Source of the DNA: a virus | Strand: one strand, 5' to 3' | IMG/VR virus record: IMGVR_UViG_3300013126_000028 | Location: 1 to 64,000 of that record | DNA length: 64,000 nt | In this document: piece by piece, positions 10,652-46,368 of the stretch | Numbering within the stretch: position 1 is the stretch's first letter | How the letters are laid out: each line of letters opens with the position of its first letter | Made by a program: the position numbers and the translations under genes | The notes under the pieces: model-generated | Databases searched by the model: none | What the model was told of the DNA's origin: nothing | What the model saw: only the letters and a program-made list of their open reading frames with translations

Positions 10652-11767
10652 TTATTTCCTATTTATTTTGACAAATTTTGCACACTTATTAAAGTCTTTT
10701 AAGTATTTGGCCCCTATATATGTACCACAACTACGCAAGCCCCCTAATATTTCTTGAACAACATTTTCTACCAAACCTTTGTATTTTACTTTTTCAACTC
10801 TACCTTCACTAGCTCTATAATCTTTTTTGCCTTCTCCATGTTTTTCTTGAGCATGATGACTGCTCATGCCGTAGAATGTTAAGTATGTTTTTCTTTTAGT
10901 TGATTTACCATCTCCAGGATCAAAAGGCTGACACCATTCATAGCTAGTTGATCCGTTATAATCTTTCATAGTTCTAAGATATTCATACTCCCATTCTCCC
11001 TCACACTCTTCTGTTCCTGCGAACATACTTCCTAACATTATAAAATCTGCTCCTCCGCACATACCCTTGCAGATGTCTCCGCTGGTCCTGCAACCCCCGT
11101 CACTCATGATTAAACCTAGTCTGCCCGTGTCTGTTTTAAGTCCGTGGGCGGCATGACCACACTCATTAATACAGCTAAACGTACCATAGCCCACGCCTGT
11201 CACCATCCTTGTTTCGCAAAATTGACCCGGCCCAATCTGAATTTTACAAACATCAACTCCCCCATGAATAATCAATTCCTCACAAATTTCTGCGGTAGTT
11301 ACATTACCAGCAACAATGATACTATCTTTAAAAGTATCACGAACACCTTTACAGAATTTTACAAAACTTTCCATATATCCATTTGGAACATCAATAACAA
11401 TATTAGGATTTTTCCCAAGCTTTTTAGCCACTATTTGTAGTTTAGATATATCCTCATAAGACTTACCGATGCTAATCCAAGCATAATCTATTCCGGCACT
11501 ATTAATAATATCAACTAGTTCGTGAGAACTGTAATATTTGTGTAAAGCTGTGACTATTTTAAATTGCGCTAATTTAATGGCCATTTTTTTGCTAGTCAAA
11601 GGCACCATATTAGAACAAACTATTGGTATACCATTCCAGATTCTAGGACTATGGTAAAATTTAAAATTTCTTTCTAATACTACTTCTTTTCTACTTTCCA
11701 GAGTGGTTCTTTGAGGAACAATTAAAACATCATCAAAATCCAACTTAACTTCTTGACTAACTAACAT
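10652..11767 (-). CDS. guaC: GMP reductase (IMPDH/GMPR family)
   Basis: 371 residues matching GMP reductase length rather than IMPDH (no CBS insertion). Seen: N-terminal LDFDDVLIVPQR, PIVCSNM, VIDVPNGY, VAGNVTTAE, the catalytic loop GPGQFCETRMVTGVG with the thioimidate cysteine, IMSDGGCRTSGDICK and GADFIMLGSMFAG. It converts GMP to IMP with NADPH. In phages such enzymes can redirect purine pools. It sits between a glycosyltransferase and a deoxyribosyltransferase-like gene. Confidence 0.9.
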   Translation of the reverse strand: MLVSQEVKLDFDDVLIVPQRTTLESRKEVVLERNFKFYHSPRIWNGIPIVCSNMVPLTSKKMAIKLAQFKIVTALHKYYSSHELVDIINSAGIDYAWISIGKSYEDISKLQIVAKKLGKNPNIVIDVPNGYMESFVKFCKGVRDTFKDSIIVAGNVTTAEICEELIIHGGVDVCKIQIGPGQFCETRMVTGVGYGTFSCINECGHAAHGLKTDTGRLGLIMSDGGCRTSGDICKGMCGGADFIMLGSMFAGTEECEGEWEYEYLRTMKDYNGSTSYEWCQPFDPGDGKSTKRKTYLTFYGMSSHHAQEKHGEGKKDYRASEGRVEKVKYKGLVENVVQEILGGLRSCGTYIGAKYLKDFNKCAKFVKINRK

Positions 11768-14638: not shown

Positions 14639-15495
14639 CTATAATTCAGAGTTTTAGCATGGATACAGTTGGTGTTATCTTCAATAAATTTTGCTGGACA
14701 CACTATTTTTTTGTTTAAATTTCTATTCAAAATAGATGCCCAGTAACTAAAACTACTATTAGCACAAATATTATGGATACACAAAGACATTAGGCACATT
14801 CCGACAGAGCTAGGCATGGGGTTTGTGTACTCTATATCATATTTAGATTCTAAATTTTTAAATATATTTTTACACTCGTTAATGTCGTCGCTAAATATCA
14901 AATATTTAGTATTTTTAATATCAAACAGATTCATAGCCCTTTGATAAAAATCTATACTAAGTTTAATGTGTCTATTATCGGGTATTTTTTTATATTCATT
15001 TCTAACACAAACACCAACAATATCTTTTGATGTTTTGGGTAAAAGTTTTTTACATCTATTGATTAAATTACTATTAAAAATAAATAGTTGTTTAATAATT
15101 TCATCTTTATATTTTGTATATAGTTCTTGATTAAGATTATATCTACAAATAATATTATAATTAGTATTATTAATACAAGAACATATTTCTTCATATGAAG
15201 AACTAGTAAAATCTATCCATTTCCAAGTTATGTCTTTAATTTGGTTCTCTTGTATAACTTTAAATATTTTAGACATATTAGAAAAAACGTGTTGAGGATA
15301 CATAATTGGTTCATCAAATTTATTAAAAAATTCCATAGCACTAGTTAGATTCTGCTGTTTAAAATCTATATCTAGAATACAAGGAATTATACCAGTATCT
15401 TTATGTAAACTATACATAGCCGCATAATGACCCATCAAAGTTCCAAATCCTTCTTTAAGAAAATAATCTGGATCTAAAGTAAATAATTTGGTCAT
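14599..15495 (-). CDS. GT11-like fucosyltransferase
   Basis: 298 residues with alpha-1,2-fucosyltransferase (GT11) features: GFGTLMGHYAAMYSL near the N-terminus, GVCVRNEY (family HxRxxDY motif, altered), YLIFSDDINECK and ANSSFSYWASILN, the conserved NSSFSWW-type motif. It would transfer fucose or a similar deoxyhexose onto a glycan. Immediately downstream of the sugar-dehydratase gene with a four-base overlap. Confidence 0.75.
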   Translation of the reverse strand: MTKLFTLDPDYFLKEGFGTLMGHYAAMYSLHKDTGIIPCILDIDFKQQNLTSAMEFFNKFDEPIMYPQHVFSNMSKIFKVIQENQIKDITWKWIDFTSSSYEEICSCINNTNYNIICRYNLNQELYTKYKDEIIKQLFIFNSNLINRCKKLLPKTSKDIVGVCVRNEYKKIPDNRHIKLSIDFYQRAMNLFDIKNTKYLIFSDDINECKNIFKNLESKYDIEYTNPMPSSVGMCLMSLCIHNICANSSFSYWASILNRNLNKKIVCPAKFIEDNTNCIHAKTLNYRWYPNSWISLDQL

Positions 15496-16631
15496 TTAAA
15501 AAATTCTTTTATTTTATAGCAAACATAATCTACGTCTGCTAATGTTATGCCATGATGAGATCCAAGTAAAAATCCATTTTTCATAATAGTATCAGAATTA
15601 AAAAATGGTTGTAAATAATTTCTATAAGCAGGGTGTCTAGTAACATTACCAGCAAAAGTAACTCGTGTTTGTATATTGTTATTTTCTAAATGATGTAATA
15701 ATTCATATCTATTTTCTGTTTGTAATGGTATCGCTAGCCAGTTTGGTTTGATAGTATCATCAGGTAATAGAATTTGTTTACAATCAGTCAAATTTGACAA
15801 ATATCTTTCTATATTATCTCTGCGAATTTTAGCAAACTTTTCAAACTTTTCTAGTTGTACCAATCCAAAAGCAGCATTCATTTCACTACTTTTCATATTA
15901 TATCCTAGACAACCATATAAAAATTTATGATCATACGGAATACCATCAACAGTATGATTAAATCTATCACTCATAATTTCAGAATTATCGCCAATTCGCC
16001 CCCAATCTCTAAAATTTAAACACGTATCTCTTAATTTAATATCATTATACATAACCATACCGCCGGAGCCGCCAGCAGTAATAACATGACTAGCATAAAA
16101 ACTAGTTGTGCTAATATCACTTTCTAAAGTGTGTGTTATAGTATCGGCAGAATCTTCGATCAAAATAATATCATTTCTACCAATTTTTGCTAACTCTGTT
16201 TTAATTTTTTTCCAATCTGGTTTATTCCCAATTAAATTTGGCAACATAAGGACTTTGGTATCTTCATTAATAAGCTCCAATATCTGTTGAACAGATGGAA
16301 CGTATGTCGTTAATTCAACATCACAAAAAACTGGCTCTAAACCCAACTGAACAATAGGCGCTAAGGTTGTTGAAAATGTACATGCGGGAGTAATAACTTT
16401 ACTGCCTTTTGATAGTTGTAAACTAGCAAGAGCTAAAAGACAAGCAGAGGATCCAGAGTTAACAAAAACTCCGTATTTTTTACCAAATATTTGAGATACT
16501 TTTTCTTCGAACTCTATTGATTTTGGGCCAAATCCGGCCAGCCAACCATCTTGTAAACACCGTGTAACAGCATCTATTTCTTCTTGTCCGTATGACTCAA
16601 ATTTATTGGGGGCATACCATATTTTTTTCAT
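15492..16631 (-). CDS. DegT/RfbH-type PLP enzyme, probable sugar 3-dehydratase
   Basis: 379 residues of the DegT/DnrJ/EryC1/StrS fold I PLP family: FVNSGSSACLLAL, TPACTFSTT, LIEDSADTI. At the site of the PLP lysine the sequence is SFYASHVITAG, i.e. His instead of Lys, as in ColD and RfbH 3-dehydratases. YDHKFLYGCLGYNMKSSEMNAA is also RfbH-like. The Cys-rich iron-sulphur loop of RfbH is absent (RDWGRIGDNSE). It therefore likely removes the C3 hydroxyl of a 4-keto-6-deoxy sugar rather than transaminating. Overlaps the SDR gene by 29 bases. Confidence 0.8.
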   Translation of the reverse strand: MKKIWYAPNKFESYGQEEIDAVTRCLQDGWLAGFGPKSIEFEEKVSQIFGKKYGVFVNSGSSACLLALASLQLSKGSKVITPACTFSTTLAPIVQLGLEPVFCDVELTTYVPSVQQILELINEDTKVLMLPNLIGNKPDWKKIKTELAKIGRNDIILIEDSADTITHTLESDISTTSFYASHVITAGGSGGMVMYNDIKLRDTCLNFRDWGRIGDNSEIMSDRFNHTVDGIPYDHKFLYGCLGYNMKSSEMNAAFGLVQLEKFEKFAKIRRDNIERYLSNLTDCKQILLPDDTIKPNWLAIPLQTENRYELLHHLENNNIQTRVTFAGNVTRHPAYRNYLQPFFNSDTIMKNGFLLGSHHGITLADVDYVCYKIKEFFK

Positions 16632-17409
16632 CTTTTATCTTTCTATATGTTTCTAATATTCCGTGTTCCAGACCGTCGTATTTGATATGTATATCATAGT
16701 AATCGCCGATGTAGTCAGAGTCATACTTTTGATTTTGTAAATCTATACTAACTCTATGATCGTCTAGACTATTAATAATATTAGCAATATTCGTGAGTGA
16801 ATATTTCTGATTATAAACACAGTCTAAGGTTTTAGGTATATTTTCGTAGTCTATATACTTTTGTACTATTTTGATAAAATCTAGCATATAAATAAAATCC
16901 ATTAGCTTATCACTATGAACAATTATATTTTGCTTATTTAAGTATCTAGTTATATTACTCTTAATAAATCTTCGTTCTAGTTCATTTTGATCAAACGCAC
17001 CATAGATTCTTAAATTGTAGCAATTTTCTTTGTCTGCTAAGGAAGACGCTATGATCTTTTTACTTAGTCCATAAAAACTATTGGGACTATATTTTTCTGC
17101 ACCAGATCCTATATTGATAAACTTTTTATATCTGTGTCTATGATTTAGTAGGTTGTAATACATTTTAATATTATCGTCTAAAATAGATGAATTATCAGAT
17201 TCTAATCTATTACCCCCCTTGATTGCGGTATGTATAACAACATCAAAAAACATGCCATCATCTAGACTATCAAACCATTTATTGGTAGAATTGGTATCTC
17301 TAAGATCAAAAATTTGTCTATTAATTGAAATTATATTATATAAACTATGTAAATATTTATATATACTAAATCCTATATATCCTTGACTCCCTGTTAATAA
17401 AATATTCAT
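16603..17409 (-). CDS. SDR-family nucleotide-sugar epimerase/reductase
   Basis: 268 residues. N-terminal TGSQGYIG is the glycine-rich NAD(P) loop; VVIHTAIKGG and the catalytic pair YGLSKK follow. It resembles the short GDP-fucose-synthase or dTDP-4-keto reductase type. It would act on the keto-deoxy sugar made by neighbouring enzymes. Overlaps the methyltransferase gene by four bases. Confidence 0.76.
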   Translation of the reverse strand: MNILLTGSQGYIGFSIYKYLHSLYNIISINRQIFDLRDTNSTNKWFDSLDDGMFFDVVIHTAIKGGNRLESDNSSILDDNIKMYYNLLNHRHRYKKFINIGSGAEKYSPNSFYGLSKKIIASSLADKENCYNLRIYGAFDQNELERRFIKSNITRYLNKQNIIVHSDKLMDFIYMLDFIKIVQKYIDYENIPKTLDCVYNQKYSLTNIANIINSLDDHRVSIDLQNQKYDSDYIGDYYDIHIKYDGLEHGILETYRKIKDEKNMVCPQ

Positions 17410-17930
17410 TTTTTACTAGCAAATATCACTTTGCAAAGTCCGCTGGTATGAATTAAATCTATTTGCTCATTGATATGATATTTAAAAGATGGCAAGGTAT
17501 TGATAAAGTATTCATACATATCTTGTCCATGAGTTTCTATGTAGTACTCTTCTATTGAGCATATGTCGGATTCGTTCATTTTAAACAAAAATTTTTCGTT
17601 TGATTCTATATCAAATTTAACACAGTTTGGCTTATAAGTATCATATAAAAATTTAATATCATTTTCAGAATTAATGGATTTGAGAATAAATTCATATCTT
17701 AAATCATTTTGGTATTTGTTTTTGAACCACGAAATTTCTTCATGGTCTATATCTACGCCAATCACTTTGGTTGCTCCATTAAATATGAAATGTTCTGGTG
17801 TTGTCAACCAACTATCGTCTACTCTTTCTACCTTATTCCATCTACCACAACCAAGATCTAATACAATCTTATTTTTTACATTAATAAATTTCCAATGTTC
17901 TGCCGAGTTTTCATTATCTAATTTATGCAT
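17406..17930 (-). CDS. SAM-dependent methyltransferase (FkbM-like)
   Basis: 174 residues. VLDLGCGRW is the SAM-binding motif I, VIGVDID motif II, and CVKFDIESNE resembles the FkbM family motif. Small, without a C-terminal domain. Likely O- or N-methylates a sugar in this cluster. Confidence 0.72.
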   Translation of the reverse strand: MHKLDNENSAEHWKFINVKNKIVLDLGCGRWNKVERVDDSWLTTPEHFIFNGATKVIGVDIDHEEISWFKNKYQNDLRYEFILKSINSENDIKFLYDTYKPNCVKFDIESNEKFLFKMNESDICSIEEYYIETHGQDMYEYFINTLPSFKYHINEQIDLIHTSGLCKVIFASKK

Positions 17931-17943
17931 TATAATTTAATCC

Positions 17944-19683
17944 TTAAGATATATCTGTTAATTCTCCGGGAATAATTTTACCATTAATATCAATACCTTT
18001 AGCTTTAACTTTTGGTTCGTGTAATTCATTAGGGTCTGTGAATACTTCTACTATACACCTTTGTGGATTTTTAAAAACTTTAGACAAAGTACTATCTATA
18101 TTTTTATTAGACCTAATACTATAATATTTATATTGAAAACATTTCGCAACATCTTCAAATGACGGAATGGATACTCCTGTATTCTGATCTGTTGCAACTA
18201 AGTGTCCTTTAAAGAATGAATTTTGTGTTAATTTAATGGATAAATATCCTTCATTATTAATAATCACAATAATAATAGGTAAATTATGATATTTGATAGT
18301 TTCTAATTCTTGTAAATTCATCATAATACTACCATCGCCCTCGATACAAATAATTGGCTTTTTACAACCATAGTATGCTCCAATAGATGCTGGTAAGCCA
18401 TAGCCCATTGGTGCTGTTCCTTCATTACTAAATAATTGCTGATCTCTTGTAAGATTCATGGTTTTTAAAGGAACAACATGAGCTGTTCCATCACTAGTTA
18501 CTATAACAGAGTCTGGTTTAAGATATTTTTCGAGTTTTTTACTAAAAACATATGTACTAACATAGCTCTTTAATGATTCGTGTTTTGGCAAAACCAAGTT
18601 TTCTTGTGATCTTTTATCGACAACATATTTTTGCCACGACTCAATATTTGACCCAGTAATATCTTTTGATATAACAAAAAAATCTTTTAGATCGATTTTC
18701 CATTTATATGTTGTTTTACTAAAATTTAATTTGGTTAATTCGTTCTCATCTATATCAATTATTATCTTTTTAGCTAACGGAGCAAATTTTTGACTATCGT
18801 ATCCTATCATCTTAGGATTTAATCTCGATCCTAGTGATATAATCAGATCACTTTCTTGAATAAGACAATTAGAGGTTTTTTGCCCCAACAAGCCGAAACG
18901 ACCAGCATAATATTGATAATCGGTATTTATTATATCTATCGCAGAGTGTGGGCCGGACATAACCGGTATCTTTAATCTATTTAGTAATTCTTTTAATTGT
19001 TCTTTGGTTCCAGATGATTTAATTCCGCCGCCAATAACTATTACTGGTTTTTTAGATTCGGTAATTAATTTTTTTAATTTATGTAGATAATATTTGTTTT
19101 TTATTTTATTTAGTAAAGATTTTGTATTATTAGCATAATAATGATGTAAATCCTCGGGGTTAACTTCAGCGCTTTGAATATCTAATGGAATGTCGATCCA
19201 TACCGGCCCCTGACGATTACTGACAGCTAGATGATATGCCTTTTCTAATTCGTAAAGAATATTATTAGCATCTGATACTAAAACAGAATACTTAGTCATA
19301 CTCTTAACGGTATCTACTATATTAAATTCTTGTTGTCCAATTTGTCTACATCCAGTATTTTTGCTTAATTGATTTGTTGGAACCTGACCGGAGATAATTA
19401 TCATTGGTGCAGAATCTTGAAAAGCACACAATACTCCGGTTAATGCGTTAGTTCCTCCTGGTCCGGTAGTTACCAAAATGCACCCAGGTTTTAATTTTGT
19501 TTTTGCATAACCCTCTGCGGCCATAGCACATGCTTGTTCGTGATGATTACATATATATTTTATAGACGTGTTCTTTCCCAAAGAATCTGTTAGGTGCATA
19601 CATCCTCCGCCAGAAACTGTAAAAACAGTATCTATACCTTTTTCCGCTATAAAATTAAAAACCAAATCTGAGACTTTTATCAT
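17944..19683 (-). CDS. ThDP-dependent acetolactate-synthase-like enzyme
   Basis: 579 residues, full length for the family. Pyr domain with catalytic Glu in NHHEQACAMAAEGYAK, GPGGTNALTGV; central FAD/ADP-like domain (VIVIGGGIKSSG); PP domain with the ThDP-Mg motif GDGSIMMN...IINN. It resembles IlvB but sits among sugar genes, like YerE, the ThDP enzyme that adds a two-carbon branch to a 3,6-dideoxy-4-keto sugar. A similar job here is inferred from the neighbouring RfbH-like dehydratase. The four-base overlap with the NeuB-like gene shows coupling. Confidence 0.82.
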   Translation of the reverse strand: MIKVSDLVFNFIAEKGIDTVFTVSGGGCMHLTDSLGKNTSIKYICNHHEQACAMAAEGYAKTKLKPGCILVTTGPGGTNALTGVLCAFQDSAPMIIISGQVPTNQLSKNTGCRQIGQQEFNIVDTVKSMTKYSVLVSDANNILYELEKAYHLAVSNRQGPVWIDIPLDIQSAEVNPEDLHHYYANNTKSLLNKIKNKYYLHKLKKLITESKKPVIVIGGGIKSSGTKEQLKELLNRLKIPVMSGPHSAIDIINTDYQYYAGRFGLLGQKTSNCLIQESDLIISLGSRLNPKMIGYDSQKFAPLAKKIIIDIDENELTKLNFSKTTYKWKIDLKDFFVISKDITGSNIESWQKYVVDKRSQENLVLPKHESLKSYVSTYVFSKKLEKYLKPDSVIVTSDGTAHVVPLKTMNLTRDQQLFSNEGTAPMGYGLPASIGAYYGCKKPIICIEGDGSIMMNLQELETIKYHNLPIIIVIINNEGYLSIKLTQNSFFKGHLVATDQNTGVSIPSFEDVAKCFQYKYYSIRSNKNIDSTLSKVFKNPQRCIVEVFTDPNELHEPKVKAKGIDINGKIIPGELTDIS

Positions 19684-25565: not shown

Positions 25566-26564
25566 TTATAAGACTTTAGCCGCTATTAAACATCCTTTTG
25601 CTACAGAATGAATAGGATCATTAGCATGAACCACCTCTTTTATTGGTAGAGGAAAGTTATTTTCTATTAGTTTTTTATGAAAAGTTTCTACATAACCTTT
25701 GGCTAACGATGTTCCTCCAGCAACCACTATCTTAAGAGGTTCTTTAAACTTCGGTAAACTTTTGTGATCTGTTAAGGCAAACGCTAATTGTTTAGTGGTA
25801 TAATCAATTAGTCTTTCATAATAAGAACTTACTGCTACTAATATAGGATTATCATTATTTTCTCCTATAACAAATCCGCCCGCTTCTTTTTCCGCTTGAA
25901 CAACAGTATCTTTTTCTCCTGTTGCAATAGAGGTCATTCTGTCGATCCAATCCCCGCTACGCACAGTAGACAGTTTAACTGTTGGCTCACCGTTTAACAT
26001 AACACAAATATTTTGCATACCACTCCCGGCCGACACAGAGATTCCAGTATAATCATCATTCTCTAATTCTGCATAACAAATTGCTTCTGCTTCATTAATA
26101 GCCCTAGCGTCATAACCACATTCTGTAAAAATTGATTTTAAGACATCTTCATGATATCCAATATCAAAATCTTCGTCTTCTACATCTACTGGTTGAGCAG
26201 GAACGCAGAAAACTAACTTTTCCCCTGGTTCTGATGGACTACCAGCAACTTCTTTTAAGATAAAGGCTAAAATTCTTTTAGCATCTTTTTCTTTTGCCGA
26301 AACTACTCCTTTATACATTGGCCTTTTAGCGTTATCATTTCTTTCTATAGCTTTTTCTATAGCATCTTTACCTAATATGATAAATGAACCGTCACTATCT
26401 TTAATAAAAGTTTTGCTCGCTAATCCTTTTTCTATCATTTTAGTTGCTACTGGAGTAGTAGGTTTGATAACATAAAAGGCATCTCTAAAATCTTTGTATT
26501 CTATTTGACCCTCATTATCTTTGGCTTTTACTATAAAGCTAGTACCAACATCTATCCCGATCAT
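25566..26564 (-). CDS. Actin/Hsp70-fold ATPase
   Basis: 332 residues. Phosphate 1 loop IGIDVGTSF, connect region and phosphate 2 region TGISVSAGSG, adenosine motif IVVAGGTSLAKGY. This is the ParM/MreB/FtsA-type actin fold. Phage members form filaments or act like small DnaK-type ATPases. There is no substrate-binding domain of Hsp70. It is followed in the operon by a small membrane protein, which might anchor it. Confidence 0.78.
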   Translation of the reverse strand: MIGIDVGTSFIVKAKDNEGQIEYKDFRDAFYVIKPTTPVATKMIEKGLASKTFIKDSDGSFIILGKDAIEKAIERNDNAKRPMYKGVVSAKEKDAKRILAFILKEVAGSPSEPGEKLVFCVPAQPVDVEDEDFDIGYHEDVLKSIFTECGYDARAINEAEAICYAELENDDYTGISVSAGSGMQNICVMLNGEPTVKLSTVRSGDWIDRMTSIATGEKDTVVQAEKEAGGFVIGENNDNPILVAVSSYYERLIDYTTKQLAFALTDHKSLPKFKEPLKIVVAGGTSLAKGYVETFHKKLIENNFPLPIKEVVHANDPIHSVAKGCLIAAKVL

Positions 26565-40167: not shown

Positions 40168-41085
40168 TCAAGTATCTCTTTTTTCTCCATAAAGATACTT
40201 AAAAGTAGGAAATCTTAGTGATTTTCCACCATCTTGGTTCTCAGTCTCTTCAAAATACTGAACCAAAATTTGCTTACCTAAAATTTTAGTAGGATCTTGA
40301 TAAAACTCTTGACGTTGTTTGATAGTGAAACCACTACCAACATCAACAGTATATCCTTTATGTACAATTATCGCATTAGATAACATGGTTTCCTCATGTT
40401 CTCTACCATCCTTCACATATCTAAATGGTCCGGTTGTAATCTGAACCACTTCATATTCACCATCATAAAAACTCTTATACTTCAATAAGTCTTTACTTCT
40501 TTTACCTTTGTATGGAGCATCAGCCCTAAACATAATACCCTCCCAATTATTGGTATTAGCCTTACCGGACCATTCATTAAAATCATCATCACAAGTAACT
40601 TTTTCGTGTTCAAGAACACTCAAACACTTACAGGTATTTTTTTTCATTACTTCATTAAGATTAGAATAGCGAATACTATAAGGTTTATTTTTATCTCCCT
40701 TTTTACTATAGAATTCGTCGTGACTAATCATATCAAAGATCTTATAGGAGGGATTCTCTAAGGTATGATCTTTCTTACGAATTTCTTTCATAACGCCCTG
40801 AAAATCTTCATTACCATTATCATCTATAAGACATAATTCTCCATCAAATACAACATTCTTAATTCCAAGATCTTTAATTCCACCAGCAACAACATCTAAA
40901 GTATCAAACGTCTTACCTGTTCTAGAATAAAAAGAAGAGTTTCCATCGTTGTCTACTATGGCAATAAGCCTACAATTATGTTTGAGTATACCATTAGCAA
41001 AAAAATTAGCATTATCAGCAACTTCTAGTTCGTATTTATCTTTTGATTCAATTTTTTCTATTGATTTAATTTTAATATTTTGCAT
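40168..41085 (-). CDS. DNA ligase C-terminal part fused to C-intein
   Basis: 305 residues. Residues 1-37 are a C-intein: block F ELEVADNANFFANGIL and block G LKHN, followed by Cys38 as the +1 residue. Residues 38-305 continue the ATP-dependent DNA ligase directly after the catalytic KLDG: CRLIAIVD, motif III FDGELCL, motif IV WEGIMFR, motif V LLKYK, then an OB domain. It cannot act alone as it lacks the AMP-lysine. Protein trans-splicing with the product of the gene at 42017 would recreate the ligase. AGGA precedes the ATG, inside the endonuclease gene. Confidence 0.92.
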   Translation of the reverse strand: MQNIKIKSIEKIESKDKYELEVADNANFFANGILKHNCRLIAIVDNDGNSSFYSRTGKTFDTLDVVAGGIKDLGIKNVVFDGELCLIDDNGNEDFQGVMKEIRKKDHTLENPSYKIFDMISHDEFYSKKGDKNKPYSIRYSNLNEVMKKNTCKCLSVLEHEKVTCDDDFNEWSGKANTNNWEGIMFRADAPYKGKRSKDLLKYKSFYDGEYEVVQITTGPFRYVKDGREHEETMLSNAIIVHKGYTVDVGSGFTIKQRQEFYQDPTKILGKQILVQYFEETENQDGGKSLRFPTFKYLYGEKRDT

Positions 41086-41963
41086 AATTTCCTTTCAATT
41101 TTTCCTATGTCTTTTTGTATATCTGATACCCAAAAACAGTATATCTTATAACCAAAACTTTTCAAATGATTAACACGAATTTTGTCTTTTTTCCAAATAT
41201 CTTTAGCGCACAATTCCCCATCCCATGTTATAATAATATCATTTGGTTTATATGTTTTAGGATTAGCGTGAAATGTATCTCCGTAAATTTCAATAATAAT
41301 TTTTTTATTTTCAATAATTATATCTGGTCTAGGATTATATTTTCTTTTTAAACTTTTATTATATCTATTAAAATTTATGTCTTCTGTGTTTTCGCTAATA
41401 TAAATTATATTATATTTATCTAATATAGTCTCTATTCTTTTATGTGGTATAGATTTTTTACCATTATTTCTTCTGTAACTTGGTAAATCAACTGAATTTT
41501 CAATTCCATATTTTTTTATCATTGTCTGTCTACTCTTTTGCTTAATAGACTCAACTTGAAAAATATTGGTAATACCCTTTCCGTATTTTTTCTCTAATGT
41601 TTTTTTGGTTGTTGGGGATTGAAAAGCGTTTTTATATCCGTATTTTTTGATATTTGTTTCCTCCCTCTGACGCTTTGTAATGGGATTATTCATAGCCTCT
41701 TTAATTGTCTGAGTCTTAATTCCTAATTTTTTACATCTTTCAATTATGTGTCTTGTTTTTATTTTTGGATCATTTAATTCTATTTCTAGAGAATAACATG
41801 AACGCTTAAATTTAATAATATGTTTAGTCAAATATTTTTTTGTTAGGATATTATTTCTATAGCAAGATATATATTTATTATACTCCTCACATTTTGCTTG
41901 ATGTCCGTATAATTGTTTTTTGGTTTTTAACCCAGTTTTATTACAATATTTACATTTCATCAT
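41058..41963 (-). CDS. EDxHD-type homing endonuclease in the ligase fracture
   Basis: 301 residues. N-terminal Cys-His zinc finger (CKYCNKTGL, then GHQAKC). The C-terminal domain is Vsr-like: RPDIIIENKKIIIEIYGDTFHANP with Glu, Asp and His of the EDxHD set, AKDIWKKDKIR giving the final acid and KIYCFWVSDI closing the fold. Such endonucleases were described inside split-intein fractured genes. It sits between the two ligase halves and overlaps the C-intein gene by 28 bases. It has its own GGTGTATTAAATA motif. Confidence 0.85.
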   Translation of the reverse strand: MMKCKYCNKTGLKTKKQLYGHQAKCEEYNKYISCYRNNILTKKYLTKHIIKFKRSCYSLEIELNDPKIKTRHIIERCKKLGIKTQTIKEAMNNPITKRQREETNIKKYGYKNAFQSPTTKKTLEKKYGKGITNIFQVESIKQKSRQTMIKKYGIENSVDLPSYRRNNGKKSIPHKRIETILDKYNIIYISENTEDINFNRYNKSLKRKYNPRPDIIIENKKIIIEIYGDTFHANPKTYKPNDIIITWDGELCAKDIWKKDKIRVNHLKSFGYKIYCFWVSDIQKDIGKIERKLCKILKLNQ

Positions 41964-41977
41964 AATCTCCTCGTTAG

Positions 41978-41990
41978 TATTTAATACACC
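41978..41990 (-). promoter_or_regulatory. GGTGTATTAAATA promoter candidate
   Basis: Minus strand GGTGTATTAAATA, 15 bases before the endonuclease ATG, with GAGGAG in between. Member of the GGTGTAT motif set. Confidence 0.4.
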
Positions 41991-42016
41991 AATATCGAGA
42001 AAACTAGATGGAAAAT

Positions 42017-42844
42017 TTAATTGCTAAAAAGAATTTCTTCGTTTCCGTTCAATTCATCTACACGACGATAGCATTTTAATTTAGGAACATATACTGTGTC
42101 GTTGCCAGTGATATTAAGAATGACTCCATTTTCTAATGTAATTTTATACCATTGTGTAGGTTTAGTTTCAGAAATGTCGTGCAAATTTTTCATATGATTT
42201 ATAATAGGCTTATACTCTATTTTTTTACTTTTATGATTATAACACTTAACATTACCTACTATTTTATTGTCTATTACATAACCTACTGGTAAACGATCAC
42301 CATTATCAAACTCTACAATGGTATTATAATCAACACACCCGTCTAGTTTGCGTGAGACAAACCAGCCATCTTCCCAATCCACAATATTGGGGTCAAATTT
42401 ATCGGCCAAAGCCACACTAAACTCTGGAATCAAGTTTGGTATTGCTTTATTTAAGATCTTATCGCCCGCCCTGGTTTTTAAGTCCTTGTCAATAACACAA
42501 TGAATAAGTTCCTCATACTCATCATTATGTTCAATAAAACTATTTACCGCCGCAATAGCATCATGACCAGTAATTTTGCGACTCTTTAGATCGTCGAGAA
42601 GATCAAAGAAATTATTGTATTCGTTCTTTCGTGAGACAAGATGATTTTTCTTCTTTAGATTGTCGCTTGTAATATTGTATTGCCAAAGAGGATGGTAAGT
42701 ATATCGAAGAATATTTTTAGCAAAATTTGCTGATGCTGTGTTGTGTCCACAATAATCAAGGATAATACCTTCTTTATCTTTGGTGCTACTTGTGGCCCTA
42801 AGATCACGAACCATTCCCCAAACATAATCAAAATCGTGAATCAT
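42017..42844 (-). CDS. DNA ligase N-terminal part fused to N-intein
   Basis: 275 residues. Residues 1-169 are the N-terminal domain of a phage-type ATP-dependent DNA ligase ending in SRKLDG with the adenylated lysine at 166. Residue 170 is the catalytic Cys1 of an N-intein of 106 residues: block A CVDYNTIVEFDNG, block B-like YKITLENGVILNITGND, then YRRVDELNGNEEI. The usual block B His (TxxH) is Asp here (TGND). AGGAG precedes the ATG and a strong promoter lies 25 bases upstream. Ligation needs splicing to the C-terminal half. Confidence 0.92.
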   Translation of the reverse strand: MIHDFDYVWGMVRDLRATSSTKDKEGIILDYCGHNTASANFAKNILRYTYHPLWQYNITSDNLKKKNHLVSRKNEYNNFFDLLDDLKSRKITGHDAIAAVNSFIEHNDEYEELIHCVIDKDLKTRAGDKILNKAIPNLIPEFSVALADKFDPNIVDWEDGWFVSRKLDGCVDYNTIVEFDNGDRLPVGYVIDNKIVGNVKCYNHKSKKIEYKPIINHMKNLHDISETKPTQWYKITLENGVILNITGNDTVYVPKLKCYRRVDELNGNEEILFSN

Positions 42845-44177: not shown

Positions 44178-44356
44178 TCAACAACTTGGCGAGATATGAA
44201 TGTGATCTAGTGAATAAACAAGAGTTTTTTTATCAAGAACTAAACTTAAGTGATCTTTAATAATTTGAACTTGAACAGATGATAATTACCTATGGGATCA
44301 TGTTCTATTAGTTCAAAAAATCCTTGCAACCAATAAACAAAATTTTCTGGGGTCAT
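44178..44356 (-). pseudogene. Frameshifted small phage protein (YWLQG family)
   Basis: Frame one gives MTPENFVYWLQGFFELIEHDPIGN; a second frame then gives SVQVQIIKDHLSLVLDKK up to TGA at 44178. Together they match the common small phage protein with xYWLQGFxEL and later IIKDHLxLVF. Restoring one T near 44286 rejoins the frames. As read, translation stops after 36 residues. Either a decayed gene or a sequence error. Confidence 0.7.
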
Positions 44357-44379
44357 AATTCAATCCTTTCTTTATTAAG

Positions 44380-44730
44380 TGGAGGTGTTGGCGGCGAAGC
44401 CAAGTCTTGCGATAATTTTAACTATACTTTCTACAAGTTTATTTTGTTCATAAATTTTAAGAAAAGTTAAAGAACAAACAACATTTACTTTTCTGTACCA
44501 ACTAATCTTAGGTTAGAACCCGTTGGTTATTCTAACAGCCGAAGGATTTAACAACGATTTTTTGGACGCTACCTTCATCGCCTCCTCAAATCGTGCTACC
44601 TTTTAATCAGGCAGCAAGAGCTAACTGAGTTTTGCCAGTTACAGCATTTGGCAGACTTTTAAAGTGGCCTGTCTACCAACCACTACTTGCTAATATAATC
44701 TCTATCATCCAATCGATACATTTCACCCCC
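44380..44730 (-). ncRNA. ssrA: tmRNA (transfer-messenger RNA)
   Basis: 351 nt. The 5' end GGGGGTG pairs with CACCTCC at the 3' end (seven pairs, one G.U), with discriminator A; CCA is not encoded. The T arm is TTGGC/GCCAA. The tag reading frame ends in ACT CAG TTA GCT CTT GCT GCC TGA (TQLALAA), stop at 44607-44609, the typical proteolysis tag ending. Sequence before it (AAAAGTC) suits the resume region, though the exact resume codon is uncertain. Downstream GC-rich segments can form pseudoknots. A strong promoter ends nine bases before the 5' end. It would rescue stalled ribosomes. Confidence 0.9.
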
Positions 44731-44739
44731 GTATGTTTT

Positions 44740-44767
44740 ATTATACACTGTGAATTGGAAAAGTCAA
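44740..44767 (-). promoter_or_regulatory. Sigma70-type promoter of the tmRNA
   Basis: Minus strand: TTGACT, 16 bp, TATAAT, then nine bases to the GGGGG 5' end of the tmRNA, the expected start distance. Confidence 0.8.
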
Positions 44768-44790
44768 TAGGTATCATAAAAAAAATTATC

Positions 44791-44818
44791 TTGCATTCTT
44801 ATAATTATTGTGTATTAT
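44791..44818 (+). promoter_or_regulatory. Plus-strand promoter of the HNH gene
   Basis: TTGCAT, 16 bp, TATTAT, diverging from the tmRNA promoter, about 20 bases before ATG 44840. Confidence 0.6.
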
Positions 44819-44839
44819 ATGGTAAGGGGTTCGATTCAG

Positions 44840-45400
44840 ATGAAAGATAAAATCTTAAATCTTCGTAAAAAAGGCTTATCTTATAACGATATCCAAAAGA
44901 AATTAAAGTGTTCAAAAGCAACAATTAGTTATCATTGTGGTAAAGGACAAAAAAAGAAGAACGATTTGCGTAGGCGAAGGCGTAGATCGTCTAATATACT
45001 AAGAAATAAAATAGAAAATTTTAAATACAAACAAAAAACAGAAATTATATATGAAAAAGATCATCGTAATGTTCGCAAAATTTTACAAATTAAATTGAGT
45101 TTTTTTAGTATGAACAGAAAAACAAAAAAGGTAAAGCAAAAATTTTCTTTACAGGACTTAGTAGATAAAATTGGAGATAATCCAACCTGCTATTTAACTG
45201 GTAGACCTATAGATTTATCTGATGGACGATCATATCATTTAGATCACATCGTTCCAGTTAGTAAAGGTGGTTCAAACGATTTATCAAATTGTCAAATAGC
45301 GTGTAAAGAAGCAAACCAAGCAAAGAGCAATTTGTCTTATGATGAATTCATTAAACTTTGTCAAGAAGTGATTCATAAAAGTCCCAAGCCTGGGAGTTAA
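44840..45400 (+). CDS. HNH endonuclease with N-terminal HTH
   Basis: 186 residues from ATG 44840 (GGGG ten bases upstream). Residues 1-35 are a helix-turn-helix (LSYNDIQKKLKCSKATISYHC), 40-70 very basic, and 120-175 the HNH domain CYLTGRPI...YHLDHIVPVSKGGSNDLSNCQIACKEANQAKSN. Typical free-standing homing endonuclease inserted between RNA genes; one of only two plus-strand genes. Its 3' end overlaps the tRNA-Ile gene on the other strand. Confidence 0.85.
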   Translation: MKDKILNLRKKGLSYNDIQKKLKCSKATISYHCGKGQKKKNDLRRRRRRSSNILRNKIENFKYKQKTEIIYEKDHRNVRKILQIKLSFFSMNRKTKKVKQKFSLQDLVDKIGDNPTCYLTGRPIDLSDGRSYHLDHIVPVSKGGSNDLSNCQIACKEANQAKSNLSYDEFIKLCQEVIHKSPKPGS

Positions 45401-45500: not shown

Positions 45501-45838
45501 CTCTTGAGTCTAAAATCCCAAATTTTCAAGTTGTATTCTTTGGCTAAATCAAACATCATTTGAGTTCCTTTTCCTCCAGTGAATAAAACGCAACCATCAG
45601 CATATTCTGCCATTTGTTTGTTTCGTAAGTATCCTGCTTTTTTACCATAAGTTTTCCAATCAGCAGGAAATATTTTAATTGAAATATGATTTTTTCTAGC
45701 CCATAATTCTCCACAGGAATCAACCCCTCTTGCTGCTCCACTAACTACTTGAGAAATGTTGCTTACTAGTTCATCTAACTTTAGTATATCTTCGTCGTTC
45801 AAATAGTAATCTCTTCCTCCAGCAATAATAGTTTTCAT
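45497..45838 (-). CDS. SLOG-family protein (YspA-like)
   Basis: 113 residues. MKTIIAGGRDYYLND, VVSGAARGVDSCGELWAR, FPADWKTYGKKAGYLRNKQMAEYADG and FTGGKGTQMM are the SLOG/cpYpsA motifs. These Rossmann-like proteins bind nucleotides or ADP-ribose derivatives and are linked to NAD-type signalling in immunity. Phage copies are common; their role is unclear. Overlaps the SPOUT gene by four bases. Confidence 0.82.
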   Translation of the reverse strand: MKTIIAGGRDYYLNDEDILKLDELVSNISQVVSGAARGVDSCGELWARKNHISIKIFPADWKTYGKKAGYLRNKQMAEYADGCVLFTGGKGTQMMFDLAKEYNLKIWDFRLKS

Positions 45839-46368
45839 TTTCTAGACTCTATGAAATTTCTATAAATACTCATAACAATACCACTAGTAGTTCCAACATT
45901 TAATGAACGAACACTTCCATAATTAGGAATAGTCAAAACTACATTTGATCTATCTAAAATTAGGTTCGACAACCCTTTATTTTCTTCACCAAATACAAAG
46001 ATAGGTTGATTGCTATCAGAAAAATCAAAGTTGAAAAGATTCACTGTTTTATCCTCGTACTCTGGAATATTATTTTCAATCGCAATAATTGTTCGTCCAG
46101 AAAGTTGCAAAAGAAAAGATTCTTCATCTTTATGATGATACATTGGAGTATAGTGATGAGTTCCTACGCTGCCTCTTTTATCCCACTTCTTTTTACCCAC
46201 ATAATGTACGCTTCTAAATCCAAAAAAGTTTGCATTACGAATCATTGTACTAAGATTAAAATCGCCCCCAATATTAATCATCGCCACACTAGAGGGAATA
46301 CTATTACTATGACAATAATTAGCAATATCTGGAATAGCCAAATCTTTAAGACAATCAAGCACGTTCAT
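45835..46368 (-). CDS. SPOUT RNA methyltransferase (TrmH/SpoU family)
   Basis: 177 residues. NIGGDFNLSTMIRNANFFG (motif 1 with the Arg), IFVFGEENKGLS (motif 2) and LTIPNYGSVRSLNVGTTSGIVM (motif 3) give the knotted SAM site of 2'-O-ribose methyltransferases such as TrmH. It might modify phage or host tRNA, in keeping with the RNA genes next to it. Confidence 0.87.
   Translation of the reverse strand: MNVLDCLKDLAIPDIANYCHSNSIPSSVAMINIGGDFNLSTMIRNANFFGFRSVHYVGKKKWDKRGSVGTHHYTPMYHHKDEESFLLQLSGRTIIAIENNIPEYEDKTVNLFNFDFSDSNQPIFVFGEENKGLSNLILDRSNVVLTIPNYGSVRSLNVGTTSGIVMSIYRNFIESRK

Follow-up and report, generated by a model that had tools for sequence, protein, structure and literature searches.

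A one-piece tmRNA gene on the minus strand

The window, the whole 64,000-nt stretch of viral DNA analysed here, contains a one-piece tmRNA gene on its minus strand, with the mature body without CCA at 44381–44730 and the discriminator base A73 at 44380. In a permissive cmscan of positions 44300–44800, the tmRNA model RF00023 matched the minus strand at 44377–44730 with 85.1 bits (E 1.1e-33), spanning model positions 1–374 of 374 and exceeding the gathering score of 47. The phage-encoded tmRNA proposed in the sequence-only reading is thus borne out from end to end by the Infernal search that had been suggested as its check. The gene is colinear, in that its 3′ part does not lie ahead of its 5′ part, and the model for permuted two-piece tmRNAs, RF04321, reached 17.4 bits, under its cut-off of 47. 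ARAGORN did not report the tmRNA, Rfam with the gathering threshold and fast filters did not report it either, and an RF00023 search of the whole 65.6-kb virus record returned nothing. Because the permissive scan scores 85.1 bits over the full model, we regard the default Rfam miss as a filter artefact; standard gene finders overlook the gene because its T-arm is unusual.

Along the RNA, the acceptor is followed by a D-arm remnant with UAUCGAUUGGAU, P2, pseudoknot 1 (PK1), UAACU, the tag frame, helix 5, PK2, PK3, PK4, the T-arm and A73, while the CCA is not encoded. The fold of the single sequence recovers the acceptor, the T-arm and the long P2, and is more stable than those of 100 shuffles (z −3.5). 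A putative σ70-type promoter, TTGACT-16-TATAAT (44740–44767, minus strand), identified by consensus match only, agrees with the consensus at 11 of 12 bases, and 9 nt separate its downstream end from the tmRNA 5′ end, in agreement with the earlier claim of a consensus promoter at the right distance.

On the 3′ side of the tmRNA lies an endonuclease VII-type gene (PF02945; 43837–44184, minus strand), which adjoins the tmRNA in most of the relatives whose flanks are long enough and, in many, starts directly past it. In many relatives, the tmRNA is preceded by a SpoU-family 2′-O-methyltransferase gene, which in the window lies at 45835–46368 on the minus strand (PF00588, with weak RlmB/TrmH/TrmL-like matches). 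We also observed an HNH endonuclease gene of opposite orientation immediately upstream of the tmRNA (44810–45400, plus strand); apart from the window lineage, only the relative L033 has it so placed and oriented. Elsewhere in the window, an ATP-dependent DNA ligase gene (40168–42844, minus strand) is broken immediately past its KLDG motif. Its N-part finishes with a stretch resembling an N-intein (CVDYNTIVE...), its C-part opens with a C-intein ending in HN followed by C (TIGR01443; weak PF14890), and between the two parts lies a DUF559/DUF7487-type gene, possibly for an endonuclease (41058–41963). The arrangement resembles a fractured gene with a split intein. The minus strand also encodes a SET-domain protein (PF00856; 42894–43295), an actin-like Volactin-family protein (PF25216, E 1.7e-56; 25566–26564), and a DegT-type aminotransferase with a three-domain thiamine-pyrophosphate enzyme (15492–19683), the last two of which look like genes for sugar or surface modification.

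A large lineage of related phage tmRNAs

Homologs of the tmRNA were found in 166 viral loci, some of them on one contig, which yield 92 distinct tmRNA sequences, and a pattern from the PK1 region occurs in at least 119 stretches. A search with the SpoU-type gene gave 56 viral loci, of which 53 have a tmRNA homolog; among the remaining three, contigs L031 and L061 stop short of the site. The rarity of tmRNAs in phages, which had been pointed out from the sequence alone, therefore holds overall, since ARAGORN found them in 402 phages or 2.3% of genomes (PMC9004378), but not within this group, where 53 of the 56 SpoU-linked loci carry one.

As a DNA query against isolated phages, the window sequence gave one 27-nt chance match, and no DNA match covering more than 80% of the query was found in 50,697 phage records with either the window sequence or a typical relative. 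The typical relative matched these records in short stretches, nearly all of which, among the matches listed, lie over the T-arm and the 3′ end. No DNA relatives were found in the plasmids searched. The lineage, found in uncultured phages, is large and apparently undescribed. A 210-kb contig of an unrelated phage lineage (L002) contains another tmRNA at 11207–11587 (RF00023, 88.8 bits), with the tag GKTQFALAA and an encoded CCA.

Alanine identity and covarying pseudoknots

The acceptor stem pairs GGGGGUG (44724–44730, minus strand) with CACCUCC (44381–44387, minus strand) in 7 of 7 pairs, as the sequence-only reading had it. Seven of seven pairs are formed in 91 of the 92 distinct sequences, which represent 11 acceptor types, and the alanine-identity elements G3-U70 and A73 are present in all 92, the window copy included. 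The CCA is encoded in three of the 92. Between the window copy and the relative L008, one U-A to C-G change in the acceptor and another in the T-stem are both compensated.

Covariation was scored in an alignment of 50 sequences with 70 pairs in 11 helices. Double changes occur at 44 of the 70 pairs, a number reached in 0 of 500 shuffles, and in 371 alignment cells; the shuffles give 124 such cells and the slid controls no more than 96. PK1 (AGUGG/CCACU and UUGGUAGAC/GUCUGCCAA; 44648–44684) is paired in 100% and 97% of the cells of its two stems, with double changes at 6 of the 9 pairs of the second stem. In PK2 (44541–44593), both stems are 100% paired and 8 of 11 pairs show double changes; the corresponding values are 99.7% and 99.2% with 11 of 12 pairs for PK3 (44498–44536), and 94% and 97% with 12 of 15 pairs for PK4 (44443–44494), all on the minus strand. 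Covariation therefore backs all four pseudoknots. The acceptor, the T-stem and helix 5 are out of register in the alignment and were left out of the score, so the support for the acceptor and the T-stem consists of pairing counts over the 92 sequences, and that for helix 5, which surrounds the tag stop codon (44595–44615, minus strand), of pairing in the window sequence alone.

The tag frame starts at a conserved resume signal

The tag frame, GGC AAA ACU CAG UUA GCU CUU GCU GCC UGA (44607–44636, minus strand), encodes GKTQLALAA, confirming the frame that ends in LALAA-stop. The frame-setting UAACU (44637–44641, minus strand) abuts the resume codon and fits the U-A-R-N-Y rule (PMC2481249); GGC lies 11 nt past PK1. 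In E. coli, this distance is 12 nt, and U85-A86-R-N-Y sets the resume codon (PMC2481249). Since UAACU stands directly ahead of GGC, the tag is (A)GKTQLALAA, with the leading alanine from the charged tmRNA. The start of the tag had been called unusual, because the frame does not begin directly after an AGUC element. We found this start to be ordinary: AGUC forms the 3′ side of PK1, so the frame need not follow it, and the true signal is UAACU followed by GGC.

UAACU directly followed by GGC is invariant in 90 of the 92 distinct sequences, and the other two have GETHLALAA after UAAAU-GGC and DVNQLALAA after UAAUU-GAC. In the 90, the tag is conserved at the amino-acid level as Q-(L/F)-(A/T)-L-A-A with synonymous third-position changes (GCC/GCA/GCT, CTT/CTC), the residues Q, L, A, L, A and A being kept except for one F and one T. 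In the relatives that it detects, ARAGORN places the tag start identically. The frame upstream of GGC is not kept, as indels just 5′ of it in L060 and L059 show. A start at GCU (AVTGKTQLALAA) was also considered and rejected, as these indels immediately precede the conserved UAACUGGC with no compensation in frame; in addition, the bacterial homologs begin at GGC.

The T-arm turns over rapidly

The T-arm of the window copy (UUGGC-UUCGCC-GCCAA; 44388–44403, minus strand) forms the stem that had been noted, UUGGC/GCCAA with 5 of 5 pairs, but its loop has only 6 nt. The usual, though not strictly defining, 7-nt UUCRANY loop is replaced by UUCGCC, without A58. The T-loop of tmRNAs is described as highly conserved, although known tmRNAs include base exceptions (PMC1168896). 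Among the 92 distinct sequences, 76 have a T-loop of 7 nt, 15 of 6 nt and one of 8 nt, and some loops lack UUC (GGCAGAA). ARAGORN detects 65 of the 92 and misses the window copy with UUCGCC, so published phage tmRNA counts based on this program may be too low.

The T-stem is fully paired in 91 of the 92 sequences, with compensatory changes between relatives, and is hypervariable at the same time, with about 20 different stems. On a core tree made without the tRNA-like domain (TLD), a quick tree in which one third of the forks are weakly supported, the 92 rows show at least 51 changes of T-stem type. Phage pairs differ in the T-stem strand in 31% of cases at a core identity of at least 97% and in 77% at 93–97%, whereas none of 12 bacterial tmRNA pairs with a core identity of at least 93%, a small set, does so. 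The T-arm turnover of the phage group is thus not seen in these few bacterial controls. We found no description of it in the literature searched, a limited library.

L033 and L028 have cores that are 99.7% identical and unrelated T-stems, and the T-arm and the downstream flank change together. In L088/L084, L012/L021 and L014/L036, the T-arm differs while the sequence on both sides matches. Furthermore, in 13 of 94 loci a second, displaced 3′ end, for example CATCTCCA, starts within about 15 nt of the first, compared with one or two such matches in 124 kb of upstream sequence on either strand, and L020, compared with L019, has a new T-arm and acceptor end ahead of a decayed old copy. A displaced 3′ end far downstream, as the trace of an integrated element, was looked for and rejected, since matches more than 70 nt away are few and appear to be coincidental. 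Borrowing of T-arms from the phages' own tRNAs was likewise rejected, since, of 29 tmRNA T-arms, just one recurs in the partial tRNA set. In L034 (3299–3652), the acceptor halves are mismatched, GGGGGCG with CUCGUCC, and this tmRNA is either a recent recombinant or a chimeric assembly.

We tentatively propose, at somewhat less than even odds, that the 3′ end of the tmRNA is a hotspot at which DNA-level events repeatedly exchange the T-arm as a whole, pairing and alanine identity always being restored. Candidate causes are homing driven by the neighbouring endonuclease VII-type gene, integrase traffic at the T-loop and selection for escape from a host nuclease; in phages, nuclease genes have been reported to mark boundaries of genetic exchange (PMC10448857). 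Alternatively, the T-arm differences of near-identical tmRNAs could be artefacts of metagenome assembly, with chimeras fused at the conserved core, which would leave the tmRNA itself unaffected. The joint shift of T-arm and downstream flank in some pairs (L033/L028) and the mismatched acceptor of L034 are what such joins would produce, but the acceptor halves agree in 91 of 92 sequences and L014/L036 swaps its T-arm between matching flanks, as do L088/L084 and L012/L021, which chimerism does not explain because their flanks match on both sides. We therefore consider assembly chimerism unlikely. If the hotspot reading is true, the T-arms of phage tmRNAs would record conflict between phages or between phage and host, and a tmRNA would be able to work with a 6-nt T-loop.

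A probable role in trans-translation with host factors

We are fairly confident that the gene encodes a functional one-piece tmRNA, which would perform trans-translation with host factors and is probably carried to recycle ribosomes. From the sequence and structure computed here, we infer charging, SmpB use, tagging and a benefit to the phage. The host RNA polymerase would transcribe the tmRNA from its own promoter, the host would add the CCA, and alanine would be charged through G3-U70 and A73, probably by the host AlaRS. A search of 15 phage contigs, mainly 120–224 kb long, turned up no SmpB, and host SmpB is therefore probably used; together with it and EF-Tu, the charged tmRNA would reach ribosomes stalled on truncated mRNA, where translation would resume at GGC and append (A)GKTQLALAA. 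For E. coli ssrA tags, the LAA end is established to lead to ClpXP-type degradation. Because the phage tag ends in LAA, it may be read by proteases of this type, probably the host ClpXP. A nuclease-rich lytic infection is expected to produce non-stop mRNAs, and the phage would probably benefit from ribosomes that are kept circulating while host and phage mRNAs are cut. The 6-nt T-loop UUCGCC without A58 and the presumed dependence on host SmpB are possible counterpoints.

The absence of SmpB from the phage contigs would also suit a tmRNA that acts mainly as a decoy or inhibitor, titrating host SmpB or blocking host trans-translation. Such a role has been proposed for the tmRNA of mycobacteriophage DS6A, which consists of the TLD only, and a TLD-only phage tmRNA inhibits the host tmRNA (PMC4131195, PMC11915505). 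However, a decoy needs neither the tag frame, the resume signal nor G3-U70, all of which are kept here, and all four pseudoknots covary. As the tag, the resume signal and the alanine identity are conserved, we favour trans-translation and regard a decoy as improbable. Slightly less probable still is a decaying, host-derived relic without function in the present phage, which would fit the 6-nt T-loop without A58 and the misses by ARAGORN and default Rfam, but not the compensated changes relative to L008, the 11-of-12 promoter, the intact tag and the pairs kept across the 92 sequences.

The host was also sought by likeness of the tag. The tag pattern G-x-x-Q-(L/F)-A-(L/F)-A-A is present in 36 bacterial contigs, mostly of Chloroflexota and otherwise of Bacteroidota, Planctomycetota, Zetaproteobacteria and Bacillota, and all 36 fit the phage tmRNA profile. 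ARAGORN starts the tag of those that it detects at the same GGC, except for one longer call (L191). In the tmRNA tree, the phage sequences form their own clade (98% SH-aLRT) with no close bacterial relative. Host assignment by this approach was rejected, since the tag is common to Chloroflexota, Bacteroidota and others and the phage clade is separate from them.

Comparison with known tmRNAs

Phage tmRNAs are known from Bxz1, Wildcat, phage G and DS6A (PMC4131195) and from huge phages (PMC7162821). The RNA described here is of a known kind, and its unusual part is the T-arm with its turnover. Under strict pairing, this fast turnover is a natural experiment on the tolerance of the TLD, and it informs on what attacks tmRNA genes or the tmRNA during infection.

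As in the bacterial one-piece tmRNA (RF00023), there are a TLD with G3-U70 and A73, P2, PK1 to PK4, helix 5, a UA-R-N-Y signal, a resume codon 11 nt past PK1 and a tag ending in LALAA. Unlike the bacterial RNA, it is phage-borne, its T-arm is hypervariable, its CCA is mostly unencoded, and about one quarter of the distinct sequences have T-loops of 6 nt or of odd sequence, GGCAGAA for example. The tmRNAs of Chloroflexota (SAR202, Dehalococcoidia) and some Bacteroidota have nearly the same tag and the same GGC-type start, although the phage sequences stand apart from them as the separate clade described above. A full tmRNA gene in the phage genome is shared with the mycobacteriophages Bxz1 and Wildcat, Bacillus phage G and the OM43 phage Melnitz; the tmRNA of Melnitz is a permuted two-piece RNA, in contrast to the one-piece form here, and the lack of a match over more than 80% of the query in the 50,697 phage records sets the present lineage apart from known phage tmRNAs. 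A parallel to the 3′ end is given by the Islander genomic islands at tmRNA 3′ ends (PMC4383910), where a regenerated 3′ end is likewise followed by the displaced old one, but in the phages no island separates the two ends, which are no more than about 20 nt from each other.
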